DNA of 64,000 nucleotides from Nesterenkonia pannonica (GTDB lineage Bacteria > Actinomycetota > Actinomycetes > Actinomycetales > Micrococcaceae), in NCBI RefSeq assembly GCF_019575955.1, contig NZ_CP080575.1, positions 2,294,001 through 2,358,000 on the forward strand. Reading direction: 5' to 3'. A model generated the notes under the pieces. It did no database searches and had not been told where the DNA came from. It worked only from the letters and a program-made list of their open reading frames with translations. This document shows, one piece after another, positions 1 to 64,000 of the stretch (position 1 is its first letter; every line of letters begins with the position of its first letter). The position numbers and the translations under genes are program-made.

Positions 1-774
1 GTTGGACATGTCCTTGATGCCTAGCTTCTCTTTGACCATCGATTCGGCGAAGTCGCCAGCGGTTGCCGCCACGACCACGATGACTGCTAGGAGGACAGCC
101 GGCGTACAGGGGCTCATCGAAGACGATCCAGGAGAAGAGCGCGCTGACGGCTGCGGCACCGAGGAGCGAGTAAGCGAACCCTTCCCAGGACTTCTTCGGG
201 CTGACCTTGGGGGCCATGGGACGGCGGCCGAACAGTCGGTAAGCGATGTAGCCGAAGGTGTCGTTGCAGACCACCAGGAGAACGACGACGGTTAGTCGCC
301 ATGCTCCGTCGTCCATCTGCACCAGCAGCACAGCGAAGGAGACGAGGAAGGGCACCCAGCATCCGATGAAGACTGCTGCGGCGGCGGACTGGATCGGGGC
401 TTCTCCGCACCGATGGGCGTGGCCCTGACTGCTGAGCTCACCCAGACCCAGACGAGAATGAGCGCGCTTGTCACGGCGAAGCTCAGGACGAGGCCTTCCT
501 CTGCTGCGAAGTAGGCAGCGACCAGCATCCCCACGGATCCGACGCACAGCGGCACAACGGGCACGTTGTAGCCCTGGCCCTTGAGGGCGCGCGCGACTTC
601 CCACACTCCCAAGCAGAGAAGGACCGAGAAGAGGAGTATGAGAACTTCGACGAAGAAGAGGATACCGATGACTGCCGGGACCAGCAGCGCAGCGCCTGTG
701 GCTATTGCGGCGGGCAGGTCACGGCCACCCCGAGGCTCGTTGCGTGCGGGTTCGGGCAGCGTCGGGGAGGGCAT
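1..774 (-). CDS. cdsA: Phosphatidate cytidylyltransferase CdsA (3' end outside window)
   Basis: This integral membrane enzyme makes CDP-diacylglycerol from phosphatidate and CTP for phospholipid synthesis. The N-terminal part has several hydrophobic segments. The family signature is visible as SPKKSWEGF followed by a hydrophobic helix, then DFAESMVKEKLGIKDMSN before the gene runs off base 1. The reading frame must shift near 390 and near 100, both compatible with lost bases. At 170-175 the minus strand reads GCTTAC (Ala-Tyr) where the family has Ala-Gly, one of the GCCGGC-type lesions. It lies downstream of frr in the classic rpsB-tsf-pyrH-frr-cdsA order, which supports the call. Confidence 0.88.
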
Positions 775-788
775 GCGGTGTAGGAGGC

Positions 789-1345
789 TCAGACCTCGAG
801 CAGCTCGGCTTCCTTGCGCTTGGCCATGTCGTCGATGCGGTCGACATGCTTCTTGGTCAGGCTCTCGAGCTCTTTGGTGCCGCGTTCGGCGTCATCCTCA
901 CCGACTTCGCCGTCCTTGGCGGCCTTCTCCATGGCTTCTTTGGCTTTGCGTCGGGCGTTTCGCACGGACACTTTGTGGTCTTCGGCTTTGCCTTTGACGA
1001 GCTTCACGTATTCCCTGCGCCGCTCTTCGGTGAGGTCGGGCATGGTGATGCGGATCTGTTTGCCGTCGTTGGACGGGTTGGCTCCGATCTCGGAGTCGGA
1101 GAGGGCCTTTTCGATCTCACGCATCGCGGAGATGTCGTAGGGGGTGATGAGGATGGTGCGGGCGTCGGGGTGTTGAAGGACGCCAGCTGCTGCAGCGGGG
1201 TGGCGCTGCCGTAGTAGTTCACGAGCACCTTGGAGTACAGGGCGGGGTTGGCCCGACCGGTGCGAACGGTGGCGAAGTCTTCGCTGGTGGCTTCGACTGT
1301 CCGCTCCATGGCCTCTTCGGCCTCGAGCAGGGTCTCGTCAATCAC
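789..1345 (-). CDS. frr: Ribosome recycling factor (one frameshift)
   Basis: Ribosome recycling factor splits post-termination ribosomes together with EF-G. The protein starts [14 protein letters not shown], has the conserved [10 protein letters not shown] segment near residue 30, and ends with the typical charged helix ELLEV, about 185 residues in total, which is the normal length. The frame breaks near 1150-1170, where Ala-Ser-Phe-Asn-Thr-Pro should continue Asp-Ala-Arg-Thr-Ile; restoring one base in a C run repairs it. An essential gene broken by a single homopolymer base is best explained as a sequencing error. Confidence 0.93.
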
Positions 1346-1413
1346 GGGTCTCTCCTTGGGTGTCCGGTTGTGCCAGGTGGCAGTCTACTGAAGTGTGGTC
1401 GCGCGCGGCATGA

Positions 1414-2278: not shown

Positions 2279-3115
2279 TCAGGATCCGACGCGGAAGCGG
2301 ACGAAGCCCACAGCTTTGGTCCCGGCAGCGTCGAGGATCTGGCTGACGCTCTGCTTGGGGTCCTTGGCGAAGGGCTGGTCCACCAGGACGTGCTCCTTGA
2401 AGTACGCGTTGGTGCGACCCTCGATGATCTTCGAGATGGCCTGTTCGGGCTTGTTCTCGGCGCGGGCAGTCTCCTCGGCGATGCGGCGCTCATCGGCCAC
2501 CTTCTCCTCGGGAACTTCGTCGCGGACGAGGTAGCTCGGCGACATCGCGGCGGCGTGCACCGCGACGTCGTGAGCGGCGGCCTTGGCCTCTTCGGAGTCG
2601 TCTGCCACTGCAACGAGCACGCCGACCTGCGCGGGCAGGTCCTTGGCGGTCTTGTGCAGGTAGGCGTCGACGTATCCGCCGGTGATTTTGGTCAGGCGGC
2701 GGACGACGACCTTCTCGCCCAGGATGGCTGCCTCTTCGGTGACGTAGTCGGACAGCTTCTTGCCGTCGACTTCGTCCTCGAGCAGAGCTTCGACGCCGTT
2801 GTGGCCGCTTACCACAGCCACTTCGAGAACTTTGTCTGCGAGGGCGATGAACTTGTCGGACTTGGCGACGAAGTCGGTCTCTGCGTTGACCTCGAGCAGG
2901 TAGCCTACCTGGTCAGTCACCTTCGCAGTGATGAGGCCTTCGGCGGCCGACCGGCCTTCGCGCTTGGCCGCACCCTTCAGGCCCTTGATGCGGATGGCCT
3001 CGATGGCCTTGTCGACGTCGCCGTCGGACTCGTCAAGGGCCTTCTTGACGTCCATCATGCCTGCGCCGGTGCGCTCGCGCAGGGCCTTGATGTCGGCAGC
3101 GGTGTAGTTCGCCAT
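2279..3115 (-). CDS. tsf: Elongation factor Ts
   Basis: EF-Ts is the guanine nucleotide exchange factor for EF-Tu. The 278-residue protein is in one frame. It opens with MANYTAADIKALRERTGAGM and DVKKAL, the N-terminal UBA-like domain, and carries the TDFVAK motif near residue 80 that contacts EF-Tu. The start follows a GGAGG ribosome site. At 2808-2813 the plus strand reads GCTTAC; the resulting Val-Ser would be Ala-Gly if GCCGGC stood there, as in many homologues. It lies 31 bases downstream of rpsB. Confidence 0.97.
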   Translation of the reverse strand: MANYTAADIKALRERTGAGMMDVKKALDESDGDVDKAIEAIRIKGLKGAAKREGRSAAEGLITAKVTDQVGYLLEVNAETDFVAKSDKFIALADKVLEVAVVSGHNGVEALLEDEVDGKKLSDYVTEEAAILGEKVVVRRLTKITGGYVDAYLHKTAKDLPAQVGVLVAVADDSEEAKAAAHDVAVHAAAMSPSYLVRDEVPEEKVADERRIAEETARAENKPEQAISKIIEGRTNAYFKEHVLVDQPFAKDPKQSVSQILDAAGTKAVGFVRFRVGS

Positions 3116-6343: not shown

Positions 6344-7846
6344 GCCTCCGTAGATTCGACGTCGGTGCGGCTGGAATCAGCTCTGACGGAACTGAACCGG
6401 ATGAGAAGAGCGTAGCTCAGGACGGCGATCACTGGTCCGACTGAAGCGAAAGCGATAAGGCCGAAGCCGTCGACGAGCATGTCGCGCCCAGGCACCGCGG
6501 CGGCCAGCCCGATACCCAATGCGGTGATCAGCGGGACCGTAATCTCGCTGGTTGTCACGCCTCCAAGGTCGAAGGCCAGCGGAACGTGCTGTTTGGGTGC
6601 CAGAAGCAGCAGGACCATCGCCAGCAGATAGAGGCTTAAGCAATGACCAACCCAAACGGTGCGCCAGTGAGGATCCGCAGCACTCCTATCCCGATGCCCG
6701 CAGCTACCCCGCAGGCCACCAGGAGCCGAAGCGTGCCAGCCCGCAAGCGCTTCTCTGAGATCTCTTCAGCCTCTTCAGCAATCGCGATCAGCGCAGGCTC
6801 AGCCATGGTCGCAGCGAAGCCGATCAGCACTCCGAAGGCGACGATGAGGAACATCCGGTCAGTCTCTATGAGCTGTTCCGCCATCTGCTTACCATAGGGA
6901 TCAGCCCGAGTTCAAGACCAACGATGAACCCGTAGAGACCCAGAACCACCATGCCGAACCCCACTGTGGCCTGAATTGGGTTGCCCAGTCGCCGTCGCAG
7001 GATCACGAACTGGAAGAACAGCACGACCAGGATGACTGGCAGTACATCTCGGCCCACATAGACCAGCCCAACCATCAGGTCCAGCCACCACGGGAGCACA
7101 TCCTCTGTCCCATTGGCGACCACGGCCTCGCCCGGTGACCCAAATTGATAAACCACGAGGCCGTAGAGCTGCACCCCGACAATGGGGACCATCACACACA
7201 GGGCGACAAGCCCGAAGCCGTCACGGAGCCGACTGCGTCCGGTGATCGAGGACGCCATGCCTATGCCGATGGCAGCTATCAGGGGAACTGTCACGATGTT
7301 GGTGGTGACCCCGCCGGAGTCGTAGGCGAGGCTGGCGATCTCCGGCGGTGAGGAGACGGTAAGGATCAGCACGACCCCGTAGCCGATGAGGAGCATGCGG
7401 TGCAGCGGCCAGCCTAAGAACACGCGGAGTGCCCCCAGCACCATCACTGCGCCCACACTGACTGCGATCACCAGCCGGAAGACGAAGCCGTCCACCTGGC
7501 CTTCACTGACTACCTCGGCCTGGTCTGCCACCGACAGCAGTGCGGGTTCCGCGATCACTGCGGCAAAGCCGATCAGGAAGCAGAAGGGGAGGATTTTCCA
7601 CAGCGACGCCGACCGGATGAGCTTATTGGTGATGGACTTCCCGACTGGAAAGACGCTGCGTTCCAGACCCTCCAAGAAGAGGGCGATGCCGACAGCCACG
7701 ATCACCAGACCGCCCAGAATCGCGTACCAGTCGTCAGGCACTTGGCGGAATACCACCAGCTGAAACAGGGCCACCACGCAGAGAATCGGGACCAGAGCGC
7801 GCAGTGCGTGAATAAGTCTCCGTGTCAGCGCCTGAGCTAGTTTCAC
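6340..7846 (-). CDS. Duplicated DUF1538 membrane protein (putative transporter)
   Basis: This polytopic membrane protein of about 500 residues contains two copies of the DUF1538 unit. Matched motifs are IGFAAVIAEPALLSVA and IGFAATMAEPALIAIA, then GGVTTNIVTVPLIAAIGIG and GGVTTSEITVPLITALGIG. The GTG start at 7846 is chosen because it begins VKLAQALTRRL just before the first membrane segment, with an AAAGGG ribosome site. A frameshift lies near 6890. At 6634-6641 GCTTAAGC replaces GCCGGC; removing the two extra bases joins GLVIA to GLYLLAMVLLLL without a stop. The family is often found beside P-II-like genes, as here. The function is unproven. Confidence 0.82.
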
Positions 7847-16888: not shown

Positions 16889-17222
16889 TCAGGCTCCCAA
16901 AACTGCCATCAGAGGCCCTCCTGAGCTTAAGCAGCGATGACCACAGCGACAACTGGCCCAATGAGGGGCAGAGGAAGTGATCTTTTGAGCAGCAGATCAC
17001 CACTCGCACCGTTGGGTCGAATACACCGTGCTCAAACGCCTCCAGACCAATGGCAGCTGCCACGAGCGCGAGTGACGTGCGGATCCAGGCGAGGAAGGTT
17101 CACTCGTTCGCCAGCGTGAACCGTGGAGCAGGATCGTCTCCACCGCCTAGCAGGCGGGTCTGCCAATCATTCGACAATGGTTGGCTCACGAGGGCCACCG
17201 GTGCGGCTGTACTCGATTGCAT
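16889..17222 (-). CDS. DUF202 (YidH-like) small membrane protein, with in-frame TGA
   Basis: The N-terminal stretch ends PRFTLANE, then TFLAWIRTSLALVAAAIGLEAF, the YidH motif, where NERTFLAWIRT is expected. The codon between Glu and Thr reads TGA near 17110 instead of an Arg codon. A frame change near 17010 leads into LPLPLIGPVVAVVIAAGSGGPLM, where GCTTAAGC (16925-16932) again stands for GCCGGC. The gene ends just before the second DUF202 start. The TGA may be another base error, or a real null mutation; this cannot be decided here. Confidence 0.62.
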
Positions 17223-18487: not shown

Positions 18488-20320
18488 TGACATCACAATC
18501 CATGAACGCCGATCCCACGCCCATGACTCCTCCCTCCAGCAGCAGGCAGCGTCAGCGCGCAGCCTTGAGACGATTCCTGCAGAATCCCTCGGCGTCGCCT
18601 CTGCCCTGTGTCTGGGAATCATCATCGTCCTCGCGCTGGTCGTCCCGCTGCTCGGCCTGCCCGATCCAGGAGCGACGAACCTGCGGAATGCTACTGAGCC
18701 CCCAGCGGTGACCACTGGCTGGGCACCAATACGTCAGGCCAAGACATACTGTCCCGCCTGATGTGGGGCAGCCGCGTCAACCTCGTCGGAGCTGCCATCG
18801 CCGTGAGCATCGCCTTCGTCATCGGAGTGACCGCCGCGCTGCTCGCGGGCTACTACCGCGGATGGCTCGACTCGATCGCGAGCTGGTTGAACAACCTCAA
18901 CATGGCCCTCCCGGGCATCGTCGTCCTCTTGGCGGTGAGCTCCGTGATCGGCCCCTCAGTATGGACCGCCATGGCGATATTCGGCGTCATCCTCTCACCC
19001 GGTTTCTTCAGAATCGTTCGCGGGGCTGTGATGGCCGTGCGCGACGAGCTCTACATCGACGCGGCGCGCGTCTCCGGGCTCAGCGACGCGCGCATCATCT
19101 CGCGTCACATCCTCACAGTGGTCAGGGCGCCGGTGCTGATCCAGTGCGCTCGTCTGGGGTCGATCGCCATTGGGGTGCAAGCAGGGCTGGAGTTCCTCGG
19201 AATCTCAGATTCGCGACAACCCTCCTGGGGCCAAATGCTCAACGAAGGCTTCCGGCGCATCGATGCGGACCCGCTGCTGGTTCTGTGGCCCTCCATCGTC
19301 ATCGGCCTGGTCTCCGTCTCACTGGTCCTATTGGGCAACGCCCTGCGCGACGCCCTCGAAGACAGAGATTCGGTCGCCTCACCTCATGTGCGGGCAGAGC
19401 AGGCCGCTGGTGCGACGACGGAATACTCCGCCTCTGCAGCATATCGGGAGGAGGTCCCCGCTCCTGACCATGAGGCGCTTCTGAGCGTGCGAGATCTTCG
19501 CGTCTCGTACAGCCAGGAAGTGGTGCGCGGCGTGAGCTTCGATCTGCACCAGGGAGAGGTGCTGGGCCTAGTCGGCGAATCGGGCTCAGGAAAGAGCCAA
19601 TCAGCTTTCGCCGTGTTGGGACTGCTCCTGAAGGCGGACGTGTATCAGGGGATCAGTGCATTTCTCAGGCACCGACCTTGTTGCTCTGCGAAAGAAGCAG
19701 CATGCGGCTCTGCGCGGTAGCGACATCGCATACATTCCCCAAGAGCCCATGAGCAATCTTGATCCTTCCTTCAAGATCGGCCATCAGCTGACGGTTCCAC
19801 TCAGGCAGAAGACGCGCATGTCCGCATCACACGCAAGGACGAAGATCCTCGCTCTCCTGGCACGGGTAGGAATTCCTGATCCAGAACGAACATTCAACGC
19901 CTATCCTCACGAAATCTCGGGAGGCATGGCACAGCGAGTCCTCATCGCAGGAGCAGTCTCATGCGAACCTCGGCTGCTCATCGCCGACGAGCCGACAACA
20001 GCCCTCGATGTCACCGTTCAGGCCGAAGTTCTTGAACTGCTGAGAGAGCTGCAGGGCGAGCTCGGGATGTCCATGCTGCTGGTCACCCACAACTTCGGCG
20101 TGGTCGCCGACATATGTGACCGAGTCGCGGTGATGCAGGAGGGGCGGCTCGTCGAGGCTTAAGCACCGTCGAGAGGACATTCGAAGATGCCCAGCATCCT
20201 TACACTCAGCGGCTCTTGGACGCCATCCTCGAGGACGTCGAACCCCGTCCGTACCCGTTCGAAGACGCGAGTGAATCCTTCGATTCCGCACCAAGCGACC
20301 CGACAGAAACGAACAAGTGA
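18487..20320 (+). CDS. ABC transporter permease-ATPase fusion (DppC-DppD)
   Basis: One protein of about 610 residues joins a DppC-type permease to a DppD-type ATPase. The permease part has [20 protein letters not shown] and the EAA loop [14 protein letters not shown]. After [12 protein letters not shown] a linker of about 40 residues leads without a stop into [21 protein letters not shown], Walker [10 protein letters not shown]-loop [12 protein letters not shown], signature ISGGMAQRV and Walker [13 protein letters not shown]. Frame changes lie near 18590, 18705 and 19640. At 20157-20164 GCTTAAGC replaces GCCGGC; restoration gives [23 protein letters not shown]. Such fusions are known in actinobacteria; the junction itself contains no frameshift. 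Confidence 0.85.
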
Positions 20321-23144: not shown

Positions 23145-24667
23145 GATGAAGATCATCTACATAGACGTCGACTCCTGCGGCCAGACCACACGGGCCCCTA
23201 CGGGTACCCCCGCAGAATCACGCCGAATCTCGACAAGCTCGCCGAGAAGAGTGTGCGCTTCGATCGCTACTACTGCTCGGACTCTCCGTGCCTGCCCTCC
23301 AGAACAGCTCTGATGAGCGGCCAGTTCGGCATCACCAACGGTGTGGTCGGCCACGCAGGCAGCGCAGCTCGATTTCGGCTCGACTCGGGCCATCGCCCCC
23401 AGTCTGGCTAAGCCCCTCCTCGGGCAGCACCTGACGGCCAACGGCTACCTCACTGCAGCGATATCCTCCTTCGCAGAACGCCACCGCGCCTACTTCTTCA
23501 TGGGCAACTTTCAGCAGAACATTCAGGCAGAGCCGCAGATCGGTGATGAACCTGCCAGCCTCATCACCGACACCGCCATCGACTGGGTCCGACGCCACCG
23601 GGAGACCGATGATTGGTACCTGCACGTGACCTATTGGGATCCCCACATGGACTACCTGCAGTCAGCGGAGTGGACTGAGGCCGCAGCACAGAGCGGCCCA
23701 GCACCCGAATGGCCGGACCAGGAGGCGATCGACAGCCATCAGGACATCTACGGACCCCGCACCGCACAGGATCTGCACTATGCGGGCCAGCCTCGAGCAT
23801 CGAGGGTGCCCCACAATATGCCGGATCAGATCAGGACCCGGGGCGACTTCAAGCACCTCATCAACGGCTACGACGGTGCTATCCACTACTGGGACCACCA
23901 TTTCGGTCTGCTTCTGGACGCTCTCGAAGAGATGGGCATCAGGGACGAGGTCGCAATCGTGGTCAGTGCGGACCACGGCGAAGCGTTCGGCGAACTGGGA
24001 TCCTACGGCGAGCATGGCTTCGCCAGTGAGCCGGTGCACCACATTCCGCTCCTGATCTCGTGGCCCGGGCTCTCCGAAGATGCGCAGAACTCCAGCGACA
24101 GCTCTCTGCTGTACAACATCGACTACGCACCGACGATCTGTGAACTCCTCGGACTGGAGATTCCGGAGAAGTGGCAGGGAGAGTCCTTTGCTTAGCGCAC
24201 TCACAGGTGCGGAGGTCCCGGATCGCGACTACCTGGTCCTGGGACATGGTGCGCACACCTTCCAGCGATCTGTGCGCACCCGGGACCGCATGTATGTCTG
24301 CACGTATCACCCCGGCTCCTACGGAGTGGCCTGGGAGGCCCTCTACAACATGGTGGATGACCCCACATGCAGCACAATCTGATCGACAGCGACACCGAAA
24401 CGGCCGACTTCCTCCGTGCTCGGCTCCAGGAATGGTGGCAGGCACACGTAACCGCCCCGGTGCACTCCCCGATCCGATGCAGAATGCGATGCAGGAGGGG
24501 CCGACCCTCTATTCCCGACCCCAGGACTATGCGGCCCACCTGCGGGCGACGGGGCGCGAGGAGCAGGCTCGCGAGCTCGAGGAGCGCTCCTCCCCGCTTC
24601 TACCGGTTCAGTGCCGGTGTCATGGCATGCCGCGGCAGAGATCAATACCGCGCGACTCAGAAAATGA
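23145..24667 (+). CDS. Type I (formylglycine-dependent) sulfatase
   Basis: The protein of about 507 residues opens MKIIYIDVDSLRPDHTGPYGYPR (metal-binding Asp residues) once a lost C near 23175 is restored. It carries SPCLPSRTALMSGQFG, the C-x-P-S-R motif whose Cys is converted to formylglycine. Later motifs are HVTYWDPHMDY and VSADHGEAFGELGSYGEHG. At 24190-24196 GCTTAGC makes a stop in GESFAGALTG; GCCGGC removes it. A further frame change lies near 23365, and the C-terminus ends INTARLRK. No signal peptide is seen. Its stop overlaps the start of the FGE gene, which fits co-production with its own maturase. Confidence 0.9.
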
Positions 24668-28741: not shown

Positions 28742-30188
<1,447 letters not shown>

Positions 30189-31032
30189 TCAGGTCAGACC
30201 ATGACGATGCCGATGGGCTTGGACGGTCTGCTCCAGCAGACATGCGATGGTCATCGGGCCCACCCCGCCCGGGACCGGAGTGATCCAGCTGGCGCGTTCG
30301 GAGGCCGCCTCGAACTCGACATCGCCGGTGTTGTCCGCATATCCGGCATCAGCCACGACCGCCCCCTCCTTGATCCATTCGCCCCTGATCAGATGGGGGC
30401 GGCCCGCTGCGGCGACGACGATGTCGGCCCGTGAGACGGCCGCCTGCAGGTCTGGGGTCTTTGAGTGGCAGTACGTGACGGTGGCATCGTCTGCCAGCAG
30501 CAGCAGTCCCATCGGAATGCCGAGGATCCTGCTGCGCCCCACGACCACCGCCTCGCTTAAGCACGTTCGATCCCGTAGTGATCGAAGAGGCGCATGATTC
30601 CGCCCGGGGTGGCAGAGCGGAAGCCCCGCTCGGCGAACGCCATCGACGCCAGCGATCCGGGGTCACGCCGTCGACGTCCTTCGCCGGATCGATCGCGCCG
30701 AACACCTGGGCCTCGTCGACCTGGGGCGGAGCCGGGTGCTGGACCAGGATTCCGTCGACGTCGTCGTCCTCGGACAGGGCCCTGACCTCTGCGACGACCT
30801 GCTCGGTGGTCGACGCTGCGTCCAGAGTGATCTGCCGCGGCTCGATGCCTGCCTTGCGGCTGCGGTCGACCTTCATGCGCACGTAGGTGTGCGAGGCCGG
30901 ATCATCGCCAACGATGACGGTGGCCAGAACCGGAGCCTTGCCGGTCTCTGCCTTGAGCTGCTGGACCTGGTCACCGAGGTCTTCGACGATGGCACGTGCC
31001 GTCGCGCGGCCGTCGAGGATCTGAGCGGACAT
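30189..31032 (-). CDS. folD: Methylenetetrahydrofolate dehydrogenase/cyclohydrolase FolD
   Basis: This bifunctional enzyme interconverts methylene-, methenyl- and 10-formyl-tetrahydrofolate. It starts [19 protein letters not shown] after AGGAGG, and shows [51 protein letters not shown] and [16 protein letters not shown] frame change near 30650 precedes the Pro-Gly-Gly-Ile-Met segment. At 30555-30562 GCTTAAGC is a lesion: GCCGGC restores [15 protein letters not shown]. It lies between purU and ligM on the same strand. Confidence 0.93.
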
Positions 31033-36458: not shown

Positions 36459-37239
36459 TCATCTCATCAGGCCGCCGCCGTCGCAGACCATGGTCTGGCC
36501 GGTCACCAGCATGCCGTCCGGCGAGGCGAGGTAGGCGACCATGCTTAAGCAAAGTGGGAGGGCGTGACGAACTCCTGATCGCCTGCCTCTCCATGGTCTT
36601 CGCGAAGACCTCTTCCCGGAGTGCTCCCTGGTTCCGGGGTCGCCACCTGCGCGGGCATGACAGCGTTGACGGTGATCCTGTCCTCGCCCAACTCGTGGGC
36701 CAGGACCCGGGTCATGCCCATGAGCGCGCCTTTGGAGGCTATATATGCCAGCTGACCGGGGTTGCCGGTGAAGAACGTTCGGGAGGCTACGTTGATGATG
36801 CGGCCGCGCCATTCGCTGTCTCGCAGGTGCGGGCAGCAGGCCTGCGACATGAGCAGCGGGCCGACAGCGTTGACGTCGAAGTACCGGTGCATCTCTTCGG
36901 GAGTCGCCTCAAGAAAGCTCCGGCGCCCGGAGAGCAGCCCGGCATTGTTGACGAGGATGTCGATCCCCCGAACCGCTCAGCCACCTCGGAGACAGTCCTG
37001 CTGACCTGGCCCTCATCGGTGATGTCGCAGTCGAAGAGATGCTCGTTCTGTCCCGGCGAATCGTCGGCCGAGTCCGGTACAGGCTCGGTGACATCGAGGC
37101 AGGCGACCGTGCTTCCCTCTGCGGCGAGCCTTGCCGCCAGGCTGCGGCCGAGTCCTCCGGCAGCTCCGGTGACGATGGACACTGTCCCTTCCAGCCGCTG
37201 CGGTACGGCCGAGGGCGCACCGACGGACGGCATCGGCAT
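36459..37239 (-). CDS. Short-chain dehydrogenase/reductase
   Basis: A classical SDR of about 255 residues: nucleotide-binding VTGAAGGLGRSLAARLA, Asp-Ile loop FDCDITDEGQV, NNAG region ILVNNAG, catalytic Ser in INVASRTF, YIASKGALMGMTR (Tyr-x3-Lys) and the C-terminal TGQTMVCDGGGLM. Frame changes lie near 36955 and 36580-36640. At 36543-36550 GCTTAAGC is a lesion (SHFAGMVAYLASPDG when restored). An aromatic-pathway oxidation, for example of the hemiacetal of a ring-cleavage product, is possible but unproven. Confidence 0.85.
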
Positions 37240-39598: not shown

Positions 39599-39670
39599 CC
39601 TTCTTCGCAAGGCGGCCACCATCGCTTGACCCCTCACACCCCCGGCTTAGCGTGATCCAGGTCTCAGCAC

Positions 39671-45772: not shown

Positions 45773-47293
45773 TCAGGCGTCCCTTCCGTAGCAGTAGGAG
45801 AGAAGCATTTCTTCGTCGGCACCCGTGGCAGACACTTCCCCGGATACACGTCCCTCATGCATGATGAGGATCCGATCGGACAGGCCGATGAGTTCGGGCA
45901 GCTCGGAGCTGACAGTGATGATCGTCGTGCCGTTCGCTGCGAGGGCCCGGATGAGCCGATAGATCTCGGCCTTGGTGCCGACGTCGATGCCGCGCGTCGG
46001 CTCGTCGAGCAGCAGAACCTTCGGACTGCGGGCGAGCATCTTGGCCAGCACGACCTTCTGCTGATTCCCTCCGGAGAGCAGACCGACCTCCTGCCGGGGC
46101 CGCGCGCCTTGATCCGCAGGTCGGCGATGCTCTTGCGTGCCAGCTCAGTGATGGCTTTGGCCGAGACCCAGCCCCTGCGCTGACCTTGGAGAGGTTCGCC
46201 ATCGCGACGTTGTTCTCGATCGTGTCGCCCAGCGAGACCCCCTGGGAGCGTCGCTCCTCGGGAACCAGAGCGATGCTTAAGCGCGCAGCGAGCGGTCGAC
46301 GCCGCCGCCCCGGCGAGTGTGGACCCATCGACGGTGATCGTGCCGGCCGTTCGCTTCTGGTCTCCGGCCAGGAGTCGCATCACTTCGCTGCGCCCGGAGT
46401 AAGCGAGGCCCCGATGCCCACCACTTCGCCTGCATGCGCGGAGAAGCTCAGGTCCCGGACCTTGTTCCCGGACAGCGCCTCAACGCTGAGAACCACTCTG
46501 TCCGTCGCGGTGCCTCGATCGGGAACATGCTGTCGGGGATCCCCCACCATCGTGCTGATGACTTCGTCGATGGTGACGTCTTCGACGTCTTTGGTCATGA
46601 TGGTTTGGCCGTTGCGCATGATCGTGACCCGATCGCACAGCTGGAACACCTCTTCGAGGCGGTGCGAGACGTAGACGATCCCGACCCCTTCGTCGCGGAG
46701 TCCGCGCAGCACTGCGAAGAGGTCCTGGATCTCCGTGTCGGTCAGCGCCGCAGTCGGCTCGTCAAGAATGAGCACCCGCGCATTGGAGGCCAGGGCGCGT
46801 GCCACCGAGACCATGGTCTGCTGAACGGGAGAGAGGCTCCCGGCCAGCCGACGGAGCGGAATATTCCCCTGGTTCAGGCGATCCAGGTAGTGGCGGGCTT
46901 GGCGATGCATGGCGCGCCAGCTCACAATCCCTCCTGAGCTGGGGTGCGCTCGCCGAGCAGAATGTTCTCCGCCACGCTGATCGTGGGAATGATGGAGGTC
47001 TCCTGGTAGAGAGCCACCACGCCTGCACGCTGCGCGTCGCGAACTGTGCGGATCTCCAGGGGCTCTGCGTCGCGCTCCAGAGAACCCTGATCCGGCTGGT
47101 GGACTCCCGTCAGAACTTTGATGAGCGTGGATTTTCCAGCCCCGTTCTCTCCCAGAAGGGCATGGATCTCACCCTCTCGGACATCGAGCCTGGCGCCGCT
47201 GAGGGCCGCCACGCCGTCGAAGTGCTTGTGAATGTCGTGAGCTCGCAGGGCAAGTAAGCTGTCCTGGTCCTCCTGGACCATCACGGCGCTCAT
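45773..47293 (-). CDS. Sugar ABC transporter ATPase with two NBDs (RbsA type)
   Basis: A two-domain ATPase of about 505 residues. Domain 1: IHKHFDGVAALSGARLDV, Walker A GENGAGKST, signature LSPVQQTMVSVARAL, Walker B VLILDEPTAALT. Domain 2: LVPEERRSQG, signature LSGGNQQKVVLAKML and Walker B VLLLDEPTRGIDVGTKAE. Lesions at 47255, 46399 and 46275-46282 all restore conserved residues, for example GLAGSGRSEVMR and LRAGIALVPE. Frame changes lie near 46920, 46420, 46325, 46175 and 46100. The gene overlaps the medium-chain dehydrogenase stop by a few bases. Confidence 0.89.
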
Positions 47294-50704: not shown

Positions 50705-52187
50705 ATGACGGACACCACCACGCCGTTGCAGCACACGGATCAGCAGACGCCGACGAGGACACCGCTGTTCTACGGAGGCCGAGAGCACCACACCGATCAG
50801 ACGCTGCGCATCACAAACCCTGCCAACCCATCCCAGGTGGTGGGTGAGGCGGCCGCGGCCAGCCGTGACCAGGCGCTGGAAGCCGTAGGCGCTGCCAAGA
50901 AAGCCTTCCTGCCTGGGCCGCTCTGACCGGTGCGGAGCGCGCTCAGCAGCTGACGCAGGCTGCTGGCGCCATTATGGAGAACTCAGAGCAGGAAGCCGGG
51001 ATCCTGTCCCGCGAGAATGGGAAGGTCGTCGGCGAGTCAACATTCGACCTCATGGGACTCGCGAAGCGCTTCGAGCTCGCCTGCGGATTGGCCGAGGAGG
51101 TCGATGCGGTCGAGGTCCTGCCGGGACCGCCCACCGAGGTGCACGTCTCTCACAAGCCCATGGGAGTCGTGACCATCATCGTGCCCTTCAACTGGTAAGC
51201 TGCCATTCTCGGCGCGTCACTGCCATACGCTCTGATGGCGGGAAACACCGTTGTGGTCAAGCCGCCGCCGTCCTGCCCGTTGGCGACCACGCGGGCGGTG
51301 CAGCGCATCGCTGAGCAGCTTCCACCGGGTGTTCTCAACGTCGTCACCGGCGAAGATGCGGAGATTGGTGAGGCCTTGGTGTCCCACGAAGACGTCGCCA
51401 AGGTCTGCTTCACCGGTTCGGTCAATGGCGGGAAGCGCATCATGACCATGGCCGCGCAGACCCTCACGAATGTGACCCTGGAGCTCGGCGGCAACGATGG
51501 AGTGCTGATCCTCGAGGACGCACAGTTCAACGAGCAGAACATGGACCTGCTCTTCATGGGCATCTTCGGCACGACCGGCCAGGTGTGCATGAACGCCAAA
51601 CGAATCTACGTCCACTCCTCCAAGAAGGAGGAGCTCGTCGCGGAGCTCACCAAACGGCTCGAGCAGGTGCAGCTCGGACCCGCATCAGACTCTTCCACCA
51701 CGATGGGCCCGTTCCACCAGAAGGCCCAGCTGGAGTTCGTCCAGACCCTGGTGAAGGAGGCCAAGGACTCCGGCGCTGACGTCCGGGAGTTCGGGAGCTG
51801 CCCGGCGGCGAATGGGCGGACGGGAACTTCATGCGTCCTTCCCTCGTTCTGGACCCCGATCCGAACCTGCGCGTCGTCACCGAGGAGCAGTTCGGTCCGA
51901 CTATCCCCATCATCACCTTCGAGGATGTCGAGGACGGCATCCGCATGATCAACGACACCGAGTACGGACTCTGCAATTCGGTATGGACGGCCGACGAGGC
52001 GACCGCCCACTCCGTGGGGACCCGGCTGCAGTCCGGCTACGTCTTCCACAATACGCACGGGTAAGCCCTGCTCGATCAGCGTGCCCCGTTCGGCGGCATC
52101 AAGCAGTCCGGCATCGGGCGTGAGATGGGAACCATCGGCCTCCGCGAGTTCCAGGAGCCTCATGCACTGGGCGTCCTGAAGGGCTGA
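50705..52187 (+). CDS. NAD(P)-dependent aldehyde dehydrogenase
   Basis: An ALDH-superfamily enzyme of about 494 residues. The Rossmann and catalytic motifs are PFNWPAAILGASLPYALMAGN, VTLELGGND (general base Glu) and GTTGQVCMNAKRIY (nucleophile Cys), with EEQFGPTIPI and PFGGIKQSG near the end. Frame changes lie near 50910 and 51800. Two in-frame TAA codons (51195-51200 and 52061-52066) occupy the Pro codons of NWPAA and HGPALLD. GCCGGC restores both residues without changing length, which is the clearest evidence for the lesion. Its substrate could be a glycolaldehyde- or aromatic-type aldehyde. Confidence 0.92.
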
Positions 52188-52300: not shown

Positions 52301-53107
52301 TCAGCTGGTGCAGCTAAGCGCCCGCAGCGACTGGTCGCCCGTCCCGGAAGCGCCGCGCTGCCATGGGAGCAGAACAGGCTCGAGCACCCGGAAGAGCAGA
52401 TTGATCAGCAGCCCGAGCAGGCCCGTCAGCACAAGACCGGCGTACATCTCATCGACCGCGAACTGCTGGTAGGCCCGGCGAATCATCGCCCCGATGCCCG
52501 TCTCGGCGCCTACGAACTCCGCAGCGATCAGGGTGATCAGGCACGTCGCCATTCCGAGCCGCAGTCCGTTGAACAGCGGTCCCGATATGGCTGGGAACAG
52601 GAGCTTCGTGACGTACTTCCAGCCGGTCGCTCCGAAGTTGCGTCCTGCTTCGATGATCTCGCTGTCGATGCTCCGCACACTGCTGCGCGTACTGATGATG
52701 ATCTGGAAGAACGCGGTGGCGAACGCAGTCATGATGTACGCGATCTCGCCGCGGCCGACGATGATGATGAAGAGCGGCAGCAGGGCAATCTTCGGCAGCG
52801 GGTAGAGCGTGTCGGTGACAGGTCGGATGAGCAGCTCGAAGGTGCGCCACACGCCCGACGCGATGCCGATCGCAACGCCCAGCACCGCAGCAATCGCAAA
52901 CGAGATCAGCAGACGCTGGATCGTAATGGCGATGTCTCCGCCCAAGCGTCCGTCGGTCAGCTGCGCGATGATCGTCATGACGACCTCACTCAGCGGGACG
53001 AAGAAGCGCTGGTCGAGTACGCCCAGCCTGGTCAGGACCTCCCAGAGCAGGACAATGGCAACAGGAGTCGTCCACGTATGCAGCCCTCGCAGAACTGTGG
53101 GACTCAT
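52301..53107 (-). CDS. ABC transporter permease (SsuC/TauC type)
   Basis: A permease of about 268 residues with six helices, starting MSPTVLRGLHTWTTPVAIVLLWEVLTRLG. The EAA loop is IIEAGRNFGATGWKYVTKLLFPA. The last helix region is AVDEMYAGLVLTGLLGLLINLLFRVLEP. It is intact. Its start overlaps the stop of the second permease. It belongs to a taurine/nitrate/sulfonate-type importer with two permeases. Confidence 0.9.
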   Translation of the reverse strand: MSPTVLRGLHTWTTPVAIVLLWEVLTRLGVLDQRFFVPLSEVVMTIIAQLTDGRLGGDIAITIQRLLISFAIAAVLGVAIGIASGVWRTFELLIRPVTDTLYPLPKIALLPLFIIIVGRGEIAYIMTAFATAFFQIIISTRSSVRSIDSEIIEAGRNFGATGWKYVTKLLFPAISGPLFNGLRLGMATCLITLIAAEFVGAETGIGAMIRRAYQQFAVDEMYAGLVLTGLLGLLINLLFRVLEPVLLPWQRGASGTGDQSLRALSCTS

Positions 53108-53887
53108 GATGCGCTCCTCTCCTCGGCCCGCCACGGCAGGATCTTGTTGGCGATCTCATCGAACCCGACCGTCGCCAGCAGGCCGAGCACAGCGATGCAG
53201 GCCAGGGCGACGTACATATCGGTGACGCGCAGAATCTGCCAGTTCTCCCACAGGAAGTTGCCCAGCCCCGACGACGCACCGATCATCTCGATCGCAATCA
53301 CGGCGATGAGCCCGAAGCCCAGTGAGATGCGGATGCCCGTGACGATCGACGGCAGCGCACCCGGAACGAAGACCCAGAAGAAGCGCTTCGCTCCGCGGCA
53401 GTCGTAGTTGTCGGCCACTTCGATCAGCGTCCTGCTGATGCTGTGCACCCTGCGACGGTGTACAGCATCATCACGATGAGCGGTGTCACGAGCGCGGTCA
53501 GCAGGACCGCTGTCTCGGTACGGCCCAGAATGAATGTGAGAAACGGGAAGAACAGCACACCCGGAATCGGATAGACGAAGGCGAGCACGGTGCTGATTCC
53601 GCGCTCCGTCCACTGTGAAGCCGTGATCGCGATGCCGAGACTGACGCCGATCAGCACAGCCAGCACGATCGTCACGATGAGACGGAAGACCGTCATCAGA
53701 AGATCGCCGCCCAGGCCGCTTTCCATGTCGACGATGATCGACGCACCCGCAGCGATCTGCGTCGGCGGCGGAAGAACGTCACCGGGATCACTCCAGCGCG
53801 GGACAGGAGCTCCCAGGCTGTCAGCAGAGCCAGTGGGCCTACGACGAGTGCCCACCGCTCGCGGAGAAAGCGTCCGATCACGCTCAT
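53104..53887 (-). CDS. ABC transporter permease (SsuC/TauC type), second copy
   Basis: The protein restores to about 261 residues. It begins MSVIGRFLRERWALVVGPLALLTAWELLSRAG, continues after a frame change near 53780 with PPPTQIAAGASIIVDMESGLGGDLLMTV, and has an EAA loop VADNYDCRGAKRFFWVFVPGALPS after a frame change near 53450. It is homologous to the downstream permease, so the channel is probably a heterodimer. Start and stop overlap the ATPase and first permease genes. Confidence 0.86.
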
Positions 53888-54665
53888 TGGTCCCCGCCAG
53901 CCATCGCTGCCTGCACCTCGTCGCGCAGGTGATTCCAGATGTCCTGGGACAGCTTCGCAAACTCCTGTGTGCCGCGAAGCTCGGGCCCGCGATCGAGAGG
54001 GAAGTCGAGGTCGATGACTTCGCTGATCCGGCCTGGGCGCGCAGACATCAGCATCACCCGGTCGGACAGGAACACGGCCTCATCGATGGCATGGGTGATG
54101 TACATCACCGTAGGCCGGGACTCCTGCCGCAGTTCCAGTATCTGCTCCTGCAGAAGTGTGCGCGTCTGCGCGTCGAGCGCCCCGAGGGCTCATCCATCAG
54201 CAGGATCTCGGCATCCTGCGCAAGTGCGCGAGCGATGCCCACGCGCTGCTTCATGCCGCCCGAGAGCTGGTGCGGGTAGAAGTCGCCGAAACGGGCGAGC
54301 CCCATTCTCGCCAGCTGCGTCTGAGCGATCTCTGCCGCCTCCTTCTTCGGCACGTCACGGTTGCGCGGCCCGAAGGCCACATTGTCCCGCACCGACAGCC
54401 ACGGGAACAGCGCGTGCTCCTGGAACACCATGGCCGTCTTCGGGCGGCCCGGCTTCGACTGTCGAATCTCCACCGTTCCGGACGTCGGATGATGGAGGCC
54501 CGCGACGAGCCTCAGCAGCGTCGACTTGCCGCACCCTGACGGTCCGACGACTGCGACGAACTCCGACTCGCCGATGTCCAGCGACACGTCCTCGAGGGCA
54601 GTCACCTCCTCCGCACTCGAAAACCGCTTCGTCACGTCTCTGAGTCTTACTTTCGGGTCGCTCAT
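53884..54665 (-). CDS. ABC transporter ATP-binding protein (SsuB/TauB type)
   Basis: An ATPase of about 260 residues: Walker A GPSGCGKSTLLRLVAGL, Q-loop MVFQEHALFPWLSV, signature LSGGMKQRVGIARAL, Walker B ILLMDEP followed after a frame change near 54185 by LGALDAQTR, and the switch His in YITHAIDEAV. All these are typical of the taurine/sulfonate/nitrate branch. It lies 17 bases downstream of the binding-protein gene. Confidence 0.9.
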
Positions 54666-54682
54666 CTGATTCAGCCCTTCCG

Positions 54683-55778
54683 TCAGTTCTCGAGCGCGGC
54701 ATCACGCCAGGTGAAGTCCCAGATCTCTTCCTCCGGGATGATCTCGTCGTAGTTCAGCGATCCCTGCTCCATGTAGAACTCCTGCAGCTCGAGCACGAGG
54801 TCGAGGTCGACTTCCAGATCCTCATCGATGTGGTGCTGGCGCGACGCGGCGATGAGATCAGGGTCGGCACCGGTGTACTGCTCCACCAGGTCGAGCATCT
54901 CCGGAGTGTCCCAGCCGCCCGTCTCCAGCTCCTCAGCGGCCATTGCGTATGCCCGCATGAAGTCTGTGGCAGCTTCCTCGTTCTCCTCCGCCCAGTCGGT
55001 GTTGAAGAGAATCCCGGTGAAGGGAATCGGCGGCTCGTCAGGAGTCTCCCAGGGCCGGTAGCCGGAGTCGTTGCTCTCGGCTTGGGTCGGGAACGGCTCC
55101 GACAGGACGCCGCCGACGATTCCCCGTTGGCCAGGGCGGGAACCTGGTCCGGGAACGGGATGTATTCGAGATTGACCTCTTCTATGGACAGTCCCATCCG
55201 CTCCAGGGCAAAGCCCAGGACCGCTTCGGTCACCACACCGGGCCCGTTCACAGCGAACGTCTCACCCGCGTAGTCCGACATGTCCTCTGCAACCGACTCG
55301 GCCTCCTCCGAAGAGTCTGCGACCTCCGACGAAAGGATGAAATAGTCCTCCACGTAGCCTGAGTGCATAGGTGCCACGTAGCGAACCGGGAGATCATCTG
55401 CGAAGGCGTTGTACGAGGCAGAGCCGATGCCTGCAAAGCCGGTCTCGTACTGGCCTGTTGCGACACCCGTGATGGCGTCGTTGCCGCTGCTGACCTCGAC
55501 CATCTCGACGTCGACGCCGACTTCCTCGGCATACTTCTCAGCCATGAGGAAAAGAGGAGGGACGAGCCGGTCGCGAGATAGGCGATCTGGATCGCATCGC
55601 TCTCACTCTCAGCCCCGCCCCCGTTGGCGTCTGCTCCTTCACCGCCGTTTCCGAGTCCGTCTCCTTCTGCGCACCCGACAGCGAGGACGAGAGCGGCCAA
55701 GGCGCCCACTGCCACGGGGACGCGACGGCGTCGCGATGAGGTCGGCGTGAGTTCTGGGACTGCTGGTGTGCTGTTCAT
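54683..55778 (-). CDS. ABC transporter substrate-binding lipoprotein (NMT1/SsuA type)
   Basis: A lipoprotein of about 365 residues. A twin-Arg-like RRRRVPVAVGALAALVLAVGC signal ends in a lipobox; an acidic Gly-rich linker follows. The binding domain reads IQIAYLATGSSPLFLMAEKYAEEVGVDVEMV, then GQYETGFAGIGSASYNAF and GPGVVTEAVLGFALERMGLS. Frame changes lie near 55560 and 55120. AAAGGAG precedes the ATG. Next to a ThDP enzyme, its ligand may be a 2-oxo or sulfonated acid. Confidence 0.87.
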
Positions 55779-55825
55779 GCGGAAACTCCTTTGTCTCTGC
55801 GTAGCTGGAGGGCTCCGTTGCCCTT

Positions 55826-57484
55826 TTACTTGTGATCGGGACTGTGGTAAGCGGCCATGAGCCATGAGGGTCGGCCAGTGATCTTCGCGTCGACCACCAG
55901 GGCCGCTCGCGCGGCGACTCAAGCCATGCTCGCACCGGCTCGATGTCATCCATCGAGCGCACCGTCACAGCATCGCAGCCGTAGCCGCGAGCGACGCTGG
56001 CGATGTCTGTGTCGGGGAAGCGCACGATCTCCTGCTCCTCCGCCGTCGAGTCGGGAAACAGGTGAATCTCGGCACCGTAGGCTGCGTCGTTATAGACGAC
56101 GATGAGCATGCCCAGGCCCAGCCGCGCGGCCGTCTCGAGCTCCGCCGCCGCCATCAGCAGCGAACCGTCGCCGACGCCGAGCACTGTCATCCGATCGCGT
56201 CGGGCGATCGCAGCTCCCACAGCGCTCGCAAGCCCCATGCCGATCGCCTGGAAAGACAGTGGGAGAACGAAGCCGGCATCGTCAGGCACTCTCAGGTGCG
56301 CGCCGGGATAGCAGTTGACGTTGCCTCCATCGACGACCACCGTTCGCTCCATCGGCACGAGTGCGTCGAGCTCGTTGGTCAGCTGGGCAGGGTCGACATA
56401 CCCGGGCTCCTCGACGCGCTCAACGGGCTGGTCCTTCCAGTAGCGCGAGGATCTGACACGCTCAGCGACTTCAGGTGAGCGATATCCTCTGCGTGCTGGC
56501 CCCATGGCCGCCAAGGCATCGCGTGCTGCTCGTGAGACCGCAGCCGCATCGCCGACGATTCCCAGGTCAACGCCCCTGTGCATACCGATCGCCTCGGCAC
56601 GGTCGTCGATCTGCACCAGCTGCGTCCCGTCGGTCAGCGATCCCCGCGGGTCGTCCATGTGTTGAGCGAAGCGCCGAAGGCGACGATGAGGTCGCTCTCA
56701 CGGACCAGGGCGGCGGCCCCTCCGTGGCGAACCCGCCCATGATGTCCAGAGCCCATTCATCTCCTTCGAAGACTCCGCGGCCGCCTCCGGACGCGATCAG
56801 CAGGGCACCGGCCGTCTCCGCCAGCTCTCGGATGTCGTGCTTCGCCGCACGCGCACCGCGTCCGCCGACGATGACGGGCCGCTCGGCTGCGTCGAGCAGG
56901 TCCACAAGGGTCTGCACTTCCGCGTGCGACACGGCAGGCTGCGGTAAGCTCAGCGCCGTCGTGGGACGCGCCGCAGGGTACTGAGTCTGCTCCTCCTGTA
57001 TGTCGATGGGCATCGAGAGCACGACTGTTCGCCGCTCGACCTGCGCGACGTGGTAGGCCCGGGCCGCGTCGGTCACGGCTGACTCTGCGGAATGAATGCG
57101 CATGGGCGTCGCTCCCACTGAGGCGACAAGCGCATCCTGGTCGACGTAGAAGTTCGATGTGACGTCGCCCTGGGCGGTGTCGGCGGCGAGGACCAGAACC
57201 GGGGTGTGGCATTTCGCAGCCTCGGCAACACCTGTCAGCGCATTGGTGAGGCCGCAGCCCTGGTGCAGCGAGACCGCCGACACATCACCTGTGACGCGCG
57301 CATATGCGTCGGCCATCGTCGCCGCGCCCATCTCGTGTCGGGCTGCCGTGAACTCTGCTCCCTCTCGAAGCAATGCGTTCGTGACCCGAAAGTTTCCGCT
57401 GCCGACCACACCGAAGATCTGCAGCAGTCCCAGGTCGCCCAGAACGCGGCCCACCGCGTCGGCGACTCTCATCGTCTGTGCCAT
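55826..57484 (-). CDS. Thiamine-diphosphate-dependent enzyme (acetolactate synthase/benzoylformate decarboxylase family)
   Basis: A three-domain ThDP enzyme of about 553 residues. The PYR domain has FTAARHEMGAATMADAYARVTG with catalytic Glu; the central domain VIVGGRGARAAKHDI; the PP domain VVDGGNVNCYPGAHL, and the ThDP/metal motif GVGDGSLLMAAAELETAARLGLGMLIVVYND. It ends after a frame change near 55900 with DAKITGRPSWLMAAYHSPDHK. A further frame change lies near 56700; GTAAGC at 56944 gives Leu-Pro for Arg-Pro. It may decarboxylate or condense the 2-oxoacid imported by the adjacent transporter. The exact reaction cannot be read from the sequence. Confidence 0.82.
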
Positions 57485-60722: not shown

Positions 60723-61921
60723 GTGGCCGAGCAAGCGAAGGAAGACCTGGAGGACCGCGTCGACGACGGGAGCAGCTCCAAGCCCAAACGTGTGCCGTCT
60801 CTGCGAACCGTCGCTTACTCGGCGCGGAGCAGGATGCAGAAGCCTGAGTTCCTGACCGATGTCATTCAGGTCCTCAAGACTGTGATCGCTGGCACGGCGG
60901 CGTGGTGGTTCTCCACCGCCGTGCTGGGATCGGAGCTCGCATTCCTCTCTCCCTGGACGGCGCTGCTCACCGTCCACGCGACGGTCCACCGCTCGCTGTC
61001 GCGAGGGGTGCAGACCACCGTCGCCTCCAGCATCGGCGTCGGGCTCTCGTTCCTCATCGGCTACTTCCTGGGCGTCGGAATCCTCACCTTCGCCCTCGCG
61101 CTTCTGGTCGGCGTCGCGGCAGCCCGCATCTCATGGATCCGCGATGAGGGCGTCGCTATCGCCACCACCGCCATCTTCATCTTCGGAAGCGGTTTCGACG
61201 AGCAGGCGCCGCTGCTGGACGACCGCATCCTCGAAGTCGCCGTCGGAGTGGCGGTTAGCGTCGCAGTGAACCTGCTGATCGTGCCGCCGCTGGGCGACAA
61301 GCAGGCTGCACGGTACGTGGACAGCCTCAACGAGCGCATGGGCGGGGTCCTGGCGAGCATCTCGGAGGAGTTCTCCGACGATTGGGACACCGACAAGGCA
61401 GAAGCATGGTTCAAAGAGACCGAATCGATGAGCCAGGAGCTCGACTCCGCCTGGGCTGTGGTGCGCTTCGCCCGCGAGTCTCACCGGGCGAATCCGCGCG
61501 GCCGCCACGGCAGGAGCAGACTGGACCAAAGCACCTGGGACACCCGCGAGGCCAGCTACGAGGAGATCCTGGAGCGCACCGATGAAGGCATCTCCCACCT
61601 GCGCCACCTCGCCCGCTCCCTCAGGGAGGCCTCATACTCCGATGGCCAGTGGGATGACCAGTTCCGCGAGCGCTGGACACAGATCGTCGCAAAGGTAGGA
61701 CGAGCCATTGCGGACCCGGACAGGGAAGTCGCTCCTCTCCATGATGAGCTGACGTCCCTCTCCGTCGACATGGCCGAGGACAAGGGCTCCCCACCGATTC
61801 GTGGCCCACCTACGGGTCACTCATCTCGAGCCTGCGCCACATCGTCGTGGTCGTGGACGATGTGGCCTCGGCCCGCCAGGCGCGCGACAGTCGGGGCGAG
61901 AACCCCAAGGTGACCCACTAA
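60723..61921 (+). CDS. FUSC/aromatic acid exporter-like membrane protein
   Basis: A protein of about 399 residues with N-terminal membrane helices (VIQVLKTVIAGTAAWWFSTAVLG, LSPWTALLTVHATVHRSLSRGVQTT, SIGVGLSFLIGYFLGVGILTFALALLVGVA) and a cytoplasmic helical half, typical of the FUSC/ArAE family. The GTG start follows GAGGAG. A frame change lies near 61795 and the restored end is ENPKVTH. GCTTAC at 60813 gives Ala-Tyr for a likely Ala-Gly. Substrates of this family are often aromatic acids, but none can be assigned. Confidence 0.83.
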
Positions 61922-61937
61922 GGGCTTCACTGCCCTG

Positions 61938-62995
61938 TCATTGGGCCGAGGCGACCGCGTAGGCCATCCCCGGGCCTTCAACGTCCAGCCCGATCGTCTC
62001 GCCCGGCGCCGCATGGCGGCGTATTCAGCTGCCGCACTCGCAGCACCTCGTCCTGTCCATGAACACGCACCGTCACGGTGGTGTCATGTCCGAAGTAGTC
62101 CGAGTCGAGCACCACGCCCAGCACACCTCGGCCTGCAGGAGCCAGGGTGAGCTGCTCCGGCCGGAGCATGACTCGCGCCGGACCCGCTGCGGCGGGAAAG
62201 CGCAGCGGAATCTCACCGAGGACGCACGAGGCCCAACCATCCGAGATGACTGCGTCCAGCACGACCGCCTCACCGAGGAACTGCGCGGTCTCCAGATCCG
62301 AGGGAGAGGCGTATACGTCCTGAGGCGCCCCGTCTGCCGGATGCGGCCCTCGGTGAGGACGGCCACCTGATCGGCGAAGGAGAGAGCCTCGTCCTGATCG
62401 TGGGTGACGAGCAGAGCCGTGGTCCCCGTGGCGCGCAGCACCTTCTGCACCGCCTTGCGGGTGCGCTCACGCAGCCCGGCATCCAACGCGGAGAACGGCT
62501 CATCCAGCAGGATCACCTGGGGTGCGCGGGCAAGCGCTCGGGCCAGGGCCACACGTTGGCGCTGTCCACCGGACAGCTCATCGGGCCTCCGCTCGCCGTA
62601 GCTCTGCGGCAGGCTGACCAGGTCGAGGAGCTCCCCACTTTGGCGCGCCGCTGGCTCCTGCTGAGGGCAGAGGAATCGAGGCCGAACGCGACATTGCGCT
62701 CGACGCTCATATGCGGGAACAGTGCGCCGTCCTGCGACACCAGCCCGATCGGGCGGCGGTGAACGGGCTGCTTGGTGATCGCCGACCCGTCCAGCAGAAT
62801 CTCGCCGCTGGAGGGCTGGAGGAAGCCCGCGATGCTGCGCAGCAGCGTCGTCTTCCCCGACCCCGAGGGGCCCACGACCGCCGTGGTGGTGCGGGTAAGC
62901 AGACTCAGGGCAACATCCGTCAGCACCTCATGACCGGCCAGGCTGACATTCAGCGACGTCACGTCGAGAGTTCGTCCTACGGCACTGACGCTCAT
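61938..62995 (-). CDS. ABC transporter ATP-binding protein, ferric-iron (FbpC) type
   Basis: An ATPase of about 350 residues with a C-terminal TOBE domain. Motifs are [68 protein letters not shown] and [14 protein letters not shown]. The TOBE part is [12 protein letters not shown] and [11 protein letters not shown]. Frame changes lie near 62640, 62320 and 62010; the restored end is [16 protein letters not shown] at 62895 gives Leu-Thr for Pro-Ala. It converges with the FUSC gene. Confidence 0.88.
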
Positions 62996-64000
62996 CGGAC
63001 CTCCTTGAGCAGTTTGGAAATGATGATCCCGGTCGGAATCGCAGCGAGCAGAATGAGCAGCACCGCAAATGGCGCGGCGGCGGCGAAGGATTCATTCCCT
63101 GTGTAGGTCCACAGCCGTGTTGCCAGGGTGTCGAAGCCGGTGGGTCGCAGCATCAGCGTTGCGGGCAGCTCCTTGATCACGGTCAGCATCACCATGAGAG
63201 CGCTTACCCGATGCCCGGCGCCATCATCGGCAGCGTCACCCGCAGGTACGCGAGCCCGGATGAGGAGCCCAGGGACTGGGCGGCCTCCTCGAGCTCCGGC
63301 GGGGAGTTCAGCGCTGAGGCGAGCGCCGGGCCCATCGCCAGAGGGAGCATCAGCGAGCAGTAGGCCACGATCAGCATGGGGATCGTCTGATACAGCGCGG
63401 GGACCGCCGAGATGCCCAGCATGACCATGGACAGCCCAACCACCACGCCGGGCAGTGAGTGCGCGAAGTATGCCGCCCGCTCCAGACCGCGCGCGATCAG
63501 CGAGGACGACGGGCGAGGTAGAGAGCCAGCGGGACGGCAAGCACTGTGGTGGCCGCAGCGGCCAGGGCCGCCACCCACAGAGAGCCGACGAAGGCGCTGC
63601 CCACTTCCTCCAGGGACCCGGGAGTCGAGACGCCTCGGTAGGACCAGTAGGACACCGCGGCCACGGGGACGCCGAGGCAGCCGAGCACCGTCACCCACGC
63701 AGCGCCAGAGGCGGGCGCGCCCCATCGTCCAAGCTCGAGGCGGATAGGAGTCGTCGCTCCTCCCGATCCCAGGGCGGCGTAGCGGGTGGAGCGGCGGCGG
63801 ATGCGCCCTCGATCACCAGCACCAGGGCGGTGAGCACCAGCAGGATGGAGGAGAGCGCGATCCCTCCGAGCCGGTCGAAGCCCATGGAGAAGCTGGTGAA
63901 GATGGCGCGGGTGAAGGTATCGACCCGAAGGATCGCCGGCGCCCCGAAATCGGCGATGACGTAGATGGCGCAGAGGAGGCTGCTTACTGTGATCGCAGGG
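62992..64000 (-). CDS. ABC transporter permease, FbpB type (5' end outside window)
   Basis: The C-terminal part of a double-length ferric-iron-type permease. It shows VIADFGAPAILRVDTFTRAIF (periplasmic motif of FbpB), a second half starting SYWSYRGVSTPG, an EAA loop LEEAAQSLGSSSGLAYLRVTLPMMAPGIG, and the conserved VIKELPATLMLRPTGFDTLATRLW. At 63202-63207 GTAAGC (minus strand) gives a stop where GCCGGC restores GIGPALMVMLT. Further lesions lie at 63982, and frame changes near 63800 and 63510. It overlaps the ATPase start by four bases. Confidence 0.87.

Follow-up and report, generated by a model that had tools for sequence, protein, structure and literature searches.

What is one to make of a stretch of DNA in which the palindrome GCCGGC has become rare, and in which strings such as GTAAGC or GCTTAC stand where conserved proteins seem to ask for it? 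The window that raises this question comprises 64,000 nucleotides of Nesterenkonia pannonica (C1:2294001-2358000), in a genome assembled as a single 2,699,453-base contig, C1, with a stated completeness of 62.49. The original prediction, made from the letters of this window, was that a modified GCCGGC had been miscalled. Our analysis supports it: congeners have GCCGGC opposite strings containing TTA or TAA (henceforth TTA/TAA forms) far above the level of control palindromes, and matching restriction-modification genes are present. We consider it highly probable that these strings are systematic consensus errors of long-read sequencing, most likely nanopore, at GCCGGC sites carrying a modified cytosine, the work of a NaeI-type restriction-modification system. 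The footprint belongs to a known class of artefact, its motif was not encountered in the literature searched, and behind it a real NaeI-type system is indicated.

GCCGGC and the strings that take its place

Direct counting finds the predicted TTA/TAA-type strings in the window: GTAAGC 15 times, GCTTAC 18, GCTTAAGC 8, GCTTAGC 2, GCTAAGC 3, GCCTAAGC 1 and CTTAGGC 3. The scarcity of GCCGGC is likewise borne out, with ten occurrences against 37 for GCCGGA, 36 for GCCGGG and 36 for GCCGGT. This is a property of the whole genome. In a sample of 464 kb, made of the window and 20 further stretches, GCCGGC has the lowest z value among all hexamers (-17.8; 244 observed versus 724 expected, both strands). 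Genome-wide it is found 686 times, versus 2715 for the control palindrome CGGCCG, a ratio of 0.25, while in 29 congeners the same ratio lies between 0.92 and 1.46 (median 1.27); the count against related genomes, originally proposed as a check, thus reveals a depletion. Conversely, GCTTAAGC occurs 165 times here versus 1-31 times in the 29 congeners, which is the highest count among 396 genomes of the order (runner-up 92), and no other of those 396 has an equally strong signature. Loss of GCCGGC together with excess of GCTTAAGC can serve as a plain string-count test when other assemblies are screened for this artefact. Sampled sequence gives 34 GCTTAAGC in 504 kb here versus 0 in 360 kb of congener DNA, and GCTTAGC/GCTAAGC is 11.7-fold enriched in the same comparison. 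As a side observation, GCTTAAGC is found 92, 75 and 78 times in G276, G316 and G416, three members of a single genus with genomes of 1.5 Mb, where the reversed pattern occurs 13, 15 and 19 times.

Alignment tells us what these strings replace. Nine congeners, 79-86% identical, were aligned over 40 kb surrounding rpoB. GCCGGC stands in a congener at 140 positions, and there the present genome shows 25 TTA/TAA forms, 7 intact sites and 108 other strings; for 12 control palindromes pooled (n=1084) the corresponding figures are 11, 259 and 814. CGGCCG supplies seven of these 11 control cases, some of them probably overlapping GCCGGC. Adding intact and TTA/TAA sites gives 32/140 (23%) for GCCGGC, versus 24% intact for the controls; as this is about the control level, misreading can account for the loss of GCCGGC. 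The misread share comes to about 78% in this region (25/32) and to about 80% when derived from the genome-wide GCCGGC/CGGCCG ratio, so that roughly four fifths of all GCCGGC sites are affected, and the assembly is probably wrong at most of them. In a second set, a further 54.9 kb aligned with the congener G013, the 124 congener GCCGGC correspond to 2 intact sites and 15 TTA/TAA forms here, where 20 other palindromes are intact in 11.6-49% of cases with 0-2 TTA/TAA forms each. In both sets the errors concentrate on GCCGGC relative to control motifs. Congener GCCGGC is found opposite GTAAGC as well as opposite GCTTAC, and the palindrome is hit in both orientations, as originally noted.

The form taken by the error varies with the neighbouring base. 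In counts where palindromes are entered twice, which inflates their chi-square, GCTTAAGC is preceded by T in 37/68 strand readings and intact GCCGGC by C in 151/270 and by G in 20/270; the base before congener GCCGGC (n=872) is T in 162 cases, C in 326 and G in 270.

A NaeI-type locus elsewhere in the genome

A methyltransferase of NaeI/NgoMIV-like specificity was expected beyond the window, and matching genes were found. At about C1:174672-177083, outside the window, a C5 methyltransferase gene, a NaeI-family endonuclease gene on the opposite strand and a Vsr gene lie together. The endonuclease belongs to the PF09126 family, recovered in four pieces above the cut-off, and matches NaeI (1ev7) at E 1.5e-19. 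NaeI recognizes GCCGGC. The association is that of known NaeI restriction-modification (1ev7; plasmid pROB02 of Rhodococcus opacus), where, on pROB02, NaeI and Vsr lie upstream of a relative of the methyltransferase, with an HNH endonuclease gene between NaeI and methyltransferase; it differs in that the frames here are broken by sequencing errors.

The best relatives of the methyltransferase in the plasmid collection are about 60% identical to it, and it resembles the NgoMIV/NgoAIV system of Neisseria gonorrhoeae, with 60.3% identity over 233 residues to the methyltransferase of the NgoMIV system. Among five relatives inspected, NgoMIV follows in three and NaeI is near in one, on pROB02. The three are the gonococcus, where the methyltransferase precedes NgoMIV (match to 1fiu, E 1e-188), an E. 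coli plasmid and a Paracoccus plasmid, each with the same succession. By homology, therefore, our methyltransferase appears related to enzymes of GCCGGC. The site of NgoMIV is given as GCCGGC in PMC4081073, where the NaeI site as printed looks like a misprint. Unlike in the gonococcal system, the partner endonuclease in our genome belongs to the NaeI family; the NgoMIV family (PF09015) had no match in the genome, in a search that rang in no control genome either. Within the plasmid collection, the gonococcal record NZ_CP119142.1 (L194) is listed as a plasmid; at 2.17 Mb it is chromosome-sized.

Of 30 genomes in the genus, 2 have the NaeI family. The other carrier, G001, has a partial gene beside a run of N (L172, about 900-1950) and shows no footprint, with a GCCGGC/CGGCCG ratio of 1.41 and 6 GCTTAAGC. 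By eye, the frames adjacent to its NaeI gene resemble fragments of Vsr and methyltransferase.

How might such a system lead to TTA and TAA? If active, its C5 methyltransferase would most likely place 5-methylcytosine at GCCGGC, a modification reported at this motif in Aeromonas (PMC8565308) and in the gonococcus (PMC12871193). The modified base would shift the pore signal, and the basecaller would then put TAA in place of CCG, or TTA in place of CGG, at times adding one or two bases, in a form that varies with the neighbouring base. Nanopore errors bound to a motif are known, as described for Dcm CCWGG (PMC6591954), for GCAGC and GCTGG in Listeria (PMC10687267) and for RACG/CGTY in Klebsiella (PMC11610573). 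The present case resembles them, as far as these reports describe them, in that a nanopore-like assembly carries errors at a short motif linked with a modification system, and differs in that the motif is GCCGGC, three bases are replaced, often with one or two inserted, and the evidence is read from a finished assembly without the reads. Among the matches listed from the literature on nanopore sequencing and on NaeI/NgoMIV methylation, no title or abstract start reports this error at GCCGGC, which is not proof that it is unpublished. Errors left in a finished assembly here served to predict which site a restriction-modification system recognizes, and matching genes were then located elsewhere in the genome.

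Several observations weigh against this account or qualify it. CCCGGG too is seldom kept in the rpoB region (5/70), but with zero TTA/TAA forms; among eight near-neighbour motifs in the alignment with G013, GCCGGG shows 4/99 TTA/TAA forms, and CCCGGC, another of them, is kept in 7/82. GTAAGC and GCTTAC alone make a weak signal, 1238 genome-wide versus 1037 for the reversed pattern. GTAAGC is preceded here by A in 74/247 cases and by G in 123/247, and since natural congener GTAAGC follows G in half of cases, only the excess of A is informative. The frames of methyltransferase and endonuclease are broken in the assembly, as are those of housekeeping genes; in PADLOC the methyltransferase is matched best by DruM models and in fourth place by a type II model; and its fifth relative (52.7% identity) has hypothetical neighbours only. 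In the window, two in-frame TAA codons at 51195 and 52061, originally among the best cases of misread GCCGGC, do face CCG in the congener G010, yet this CCG sits within GCCGAT and TCCGGC. There is also a second C5 methyltransferase in the genome. Finally, three-base replacements with insertions exceed the one-base ambiguities described in PMC11610573, and gonococcal nanopore reads at GCCGGC are described as usable, with 5-methylcytosine called (PMC12871193); the larger error here, next to a readable gonococcal GCCGGC, means that misreading must depend on chemistry or on the basecaller.

A mark bulkier than plain 5-methylcytosine would account for an error in which three adjacent bases are exchanged and one or two added, rather than just one base becoming ambiguous. 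We give this a slim chance. It is quite improbable, too, that another modifier left the footprint, for example the second C5 methyltransferase (PF00145, about C1:1761148-1761705, in L017 6600-8000, minus strand, about C1:1760600-1762000). Its surroundings, probably a prophage, match phage families: a RecT-like annealing protein, a single-strand binding protein and replication initiation. Against it, relatives of the first methyltransferase adjoin enzymes of GCCGGC. The N4/N6 methyltransferase family PF01555 had no match in the genome, in a search that picked it up in 11 of the 14 control genomes but could miss a gene with broken frames; other methyltransferase families were not searched.

Frameshifts in housekeeping genes

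In the part of the rpoB region aligned with G013, 9 of 19 TTA/TAA sites are frameshifts. One lies in rpoC, at a place where nine of nine congeners have GCCGGC; two are in elongation factor G (EF-G); another two fall within an open frame encompassing ribosomal protein L4, the first close to where the L4 domain ends and the second upstream of that domain; the remaining four are in frames without identification. In a living cell the frameshifts in rpoC and EF-G would be lethal, hence those TTA/TAA forms cannot be real.

This bears on the view that the sequence is correct and that GCCGGC was lost by real mutation, through avoidance of self-restriction or deamination of methylcytosine, leaving TTA/TAA behind. 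The genome does carry a NaeI-type system, and restriction-modification systems can lead to avoidance of their own site. Yet three-base replacements and insertions of one or two bases are not what deamination produces, and with intact and TTA/TAA sites already summing to the control level, no loss is left for avoidance to explain. Given the frameshifts in rpoC and EF-G together with that sum, real mutational loss was rejected as a candidate, and we regard it as very improbable.

The general quality of the assembly fits long-read errors. Runs of six G or C amount to 0.4 per 100 kb here versus 5-20 in four congeners (40 kb each, with few runs), runs of four are commoner here than in the same four, and none of 54 aligned congener runs of six is kept. 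The rpoB gene is matched in ten pieces; 28 of 29 congeners have it above the cut-off, the remaining one being an incomplete genome without match. Such an error background is described for uncorrected nanopore assemblies (PMC6591954), and the shortening of long homopolymers with a broken rpoB most likely reflects an assembly of this type. Many of the apparent stops and frameshifts are thus probably false, and for this reason the assembly is unsuited, as it stands, for claims of gene loss or pseudogenes.

Natural background and sites within the window

Not every string is a misread site. GTAAGC/GCTTAC reaches 49 per 100 kb here versus 24 in congener DNA, so that natural sequence may make up roughly half of the window's 33, and the use of these sites as footprint holds in part only. 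The form GCCTAAGC/GCTTAGGC, listed originally at 33963, is not enriched (2.4 here versus 2.5 per 100 kb in congeners), and GTAAAC overall shows no enrichment here versus congeners. An apparently natural GCTTAC at 25186-25191, absent from the original list, encodes an Ala-Tyr present in 3/3 matched relatives; in the aligned rpoB region GCTTAC is also found in 7/9 congeners at position 26415 and in 5/9 at 24091. That relatives may carry the same strings, named at the outset as a possible refutation, is thus true of some natural GCTTAC sites; these are background and leave the footprint itself unaffected. That the listed strings are mostly natural and the pattern read into noise, which the natural density, the sites shared with relatives and the unenriched GCCTAAGC/GCTTAGGC might suggest, is true for part of the list but scarcely credible as a full explanation, refuted as it is by the GCTTAAGC and GCTTAGC/GCTAAGC enrichments and by both congener alignments.

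Four of the listed sites were checked individually against homologous DNA (170, 2807, 51195 and 52061). Nine aligned window positions have GCCGGC in G013; here two are TTA/TAA forms, both predicted (170 and 2807, the latter given as 2808), and seven are other strings. A DNA search with window positions 36500-56400 gave one congener match. At the protein level 34 of 51 window strings were covered, mostly by spurious GC-rich frames, and only the aldehyde dehydrogenase sites and 25186 were retained. The original coordinates are mostly right, with starts 2808 and 47255 off by one base and 8987 being GCTTA only, and the ten intact positions coincide exactly with our count. The sites are as follows.

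98..103 and starts 10927, 15430, 33807, 35355, 44549, 44563, 46342, 56272, 63935: the ten intact GCCGGC
170..175, plus strand: GTAAGC; GCCGGC in congener G013 by alignment
2807..2812, plus strand: GCTTAC; GCCGGC in congener G013 by alignment
51195..51200, plus strand: GTAAGC with in-frame TAA in an aldehyde-dehydrogenase-like gene; CCG in congener G010 (DNA alignment, 80% identity)
52061..52066, plus strand: GTAAGC with in-frame TAA in the same gene; CCG in G010 (DNA alignment)
6634..6641, no strand: GCTTAAGC, a form strongly enriched in the genome
11238..11245, no strand: GCTTAAGC, by the form's enrichment in the genome
16019..16026, no strand: GCTTAAGC, same basis
16925..16932, no strand: GCTTAAGC, same basis
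20157..20164, no strand: GCTTAAGC, same basis
30555..30562, no strand: GCTTAAGC, same basis
36543..36550, no strand: GCTTAAGC, same basis
46275..46282, no strand: GCTTAAGC, same basis
23407..23413, plus strand: GCTAAGC, 11.7-fold enriched with its complement
24190..24196, plus strand: GCTTAGC, 11.7-fold enriched with its complement
29443..29449, plus strand: GCTAAGC, by the form's enrichment
39645..39651, plus strand: GCTTAGC, same basis
52313..52319, plus strand: GCTAAGC, same basis
1..64000, no strand: 33 GTAAGC/GCTTAC strings, a mix of misread GCCGGC and natural sequence, judged by density versus congeners

The two strand forms are unequal genome-wide, GTAAGC 506 versus GCTTAC 732, and the excess switches sides along the genome (11 versus 1 in L115, 0 versus 6 in L106); one guess is that this imbalance comes from a coding-strand bias of the natural sites.

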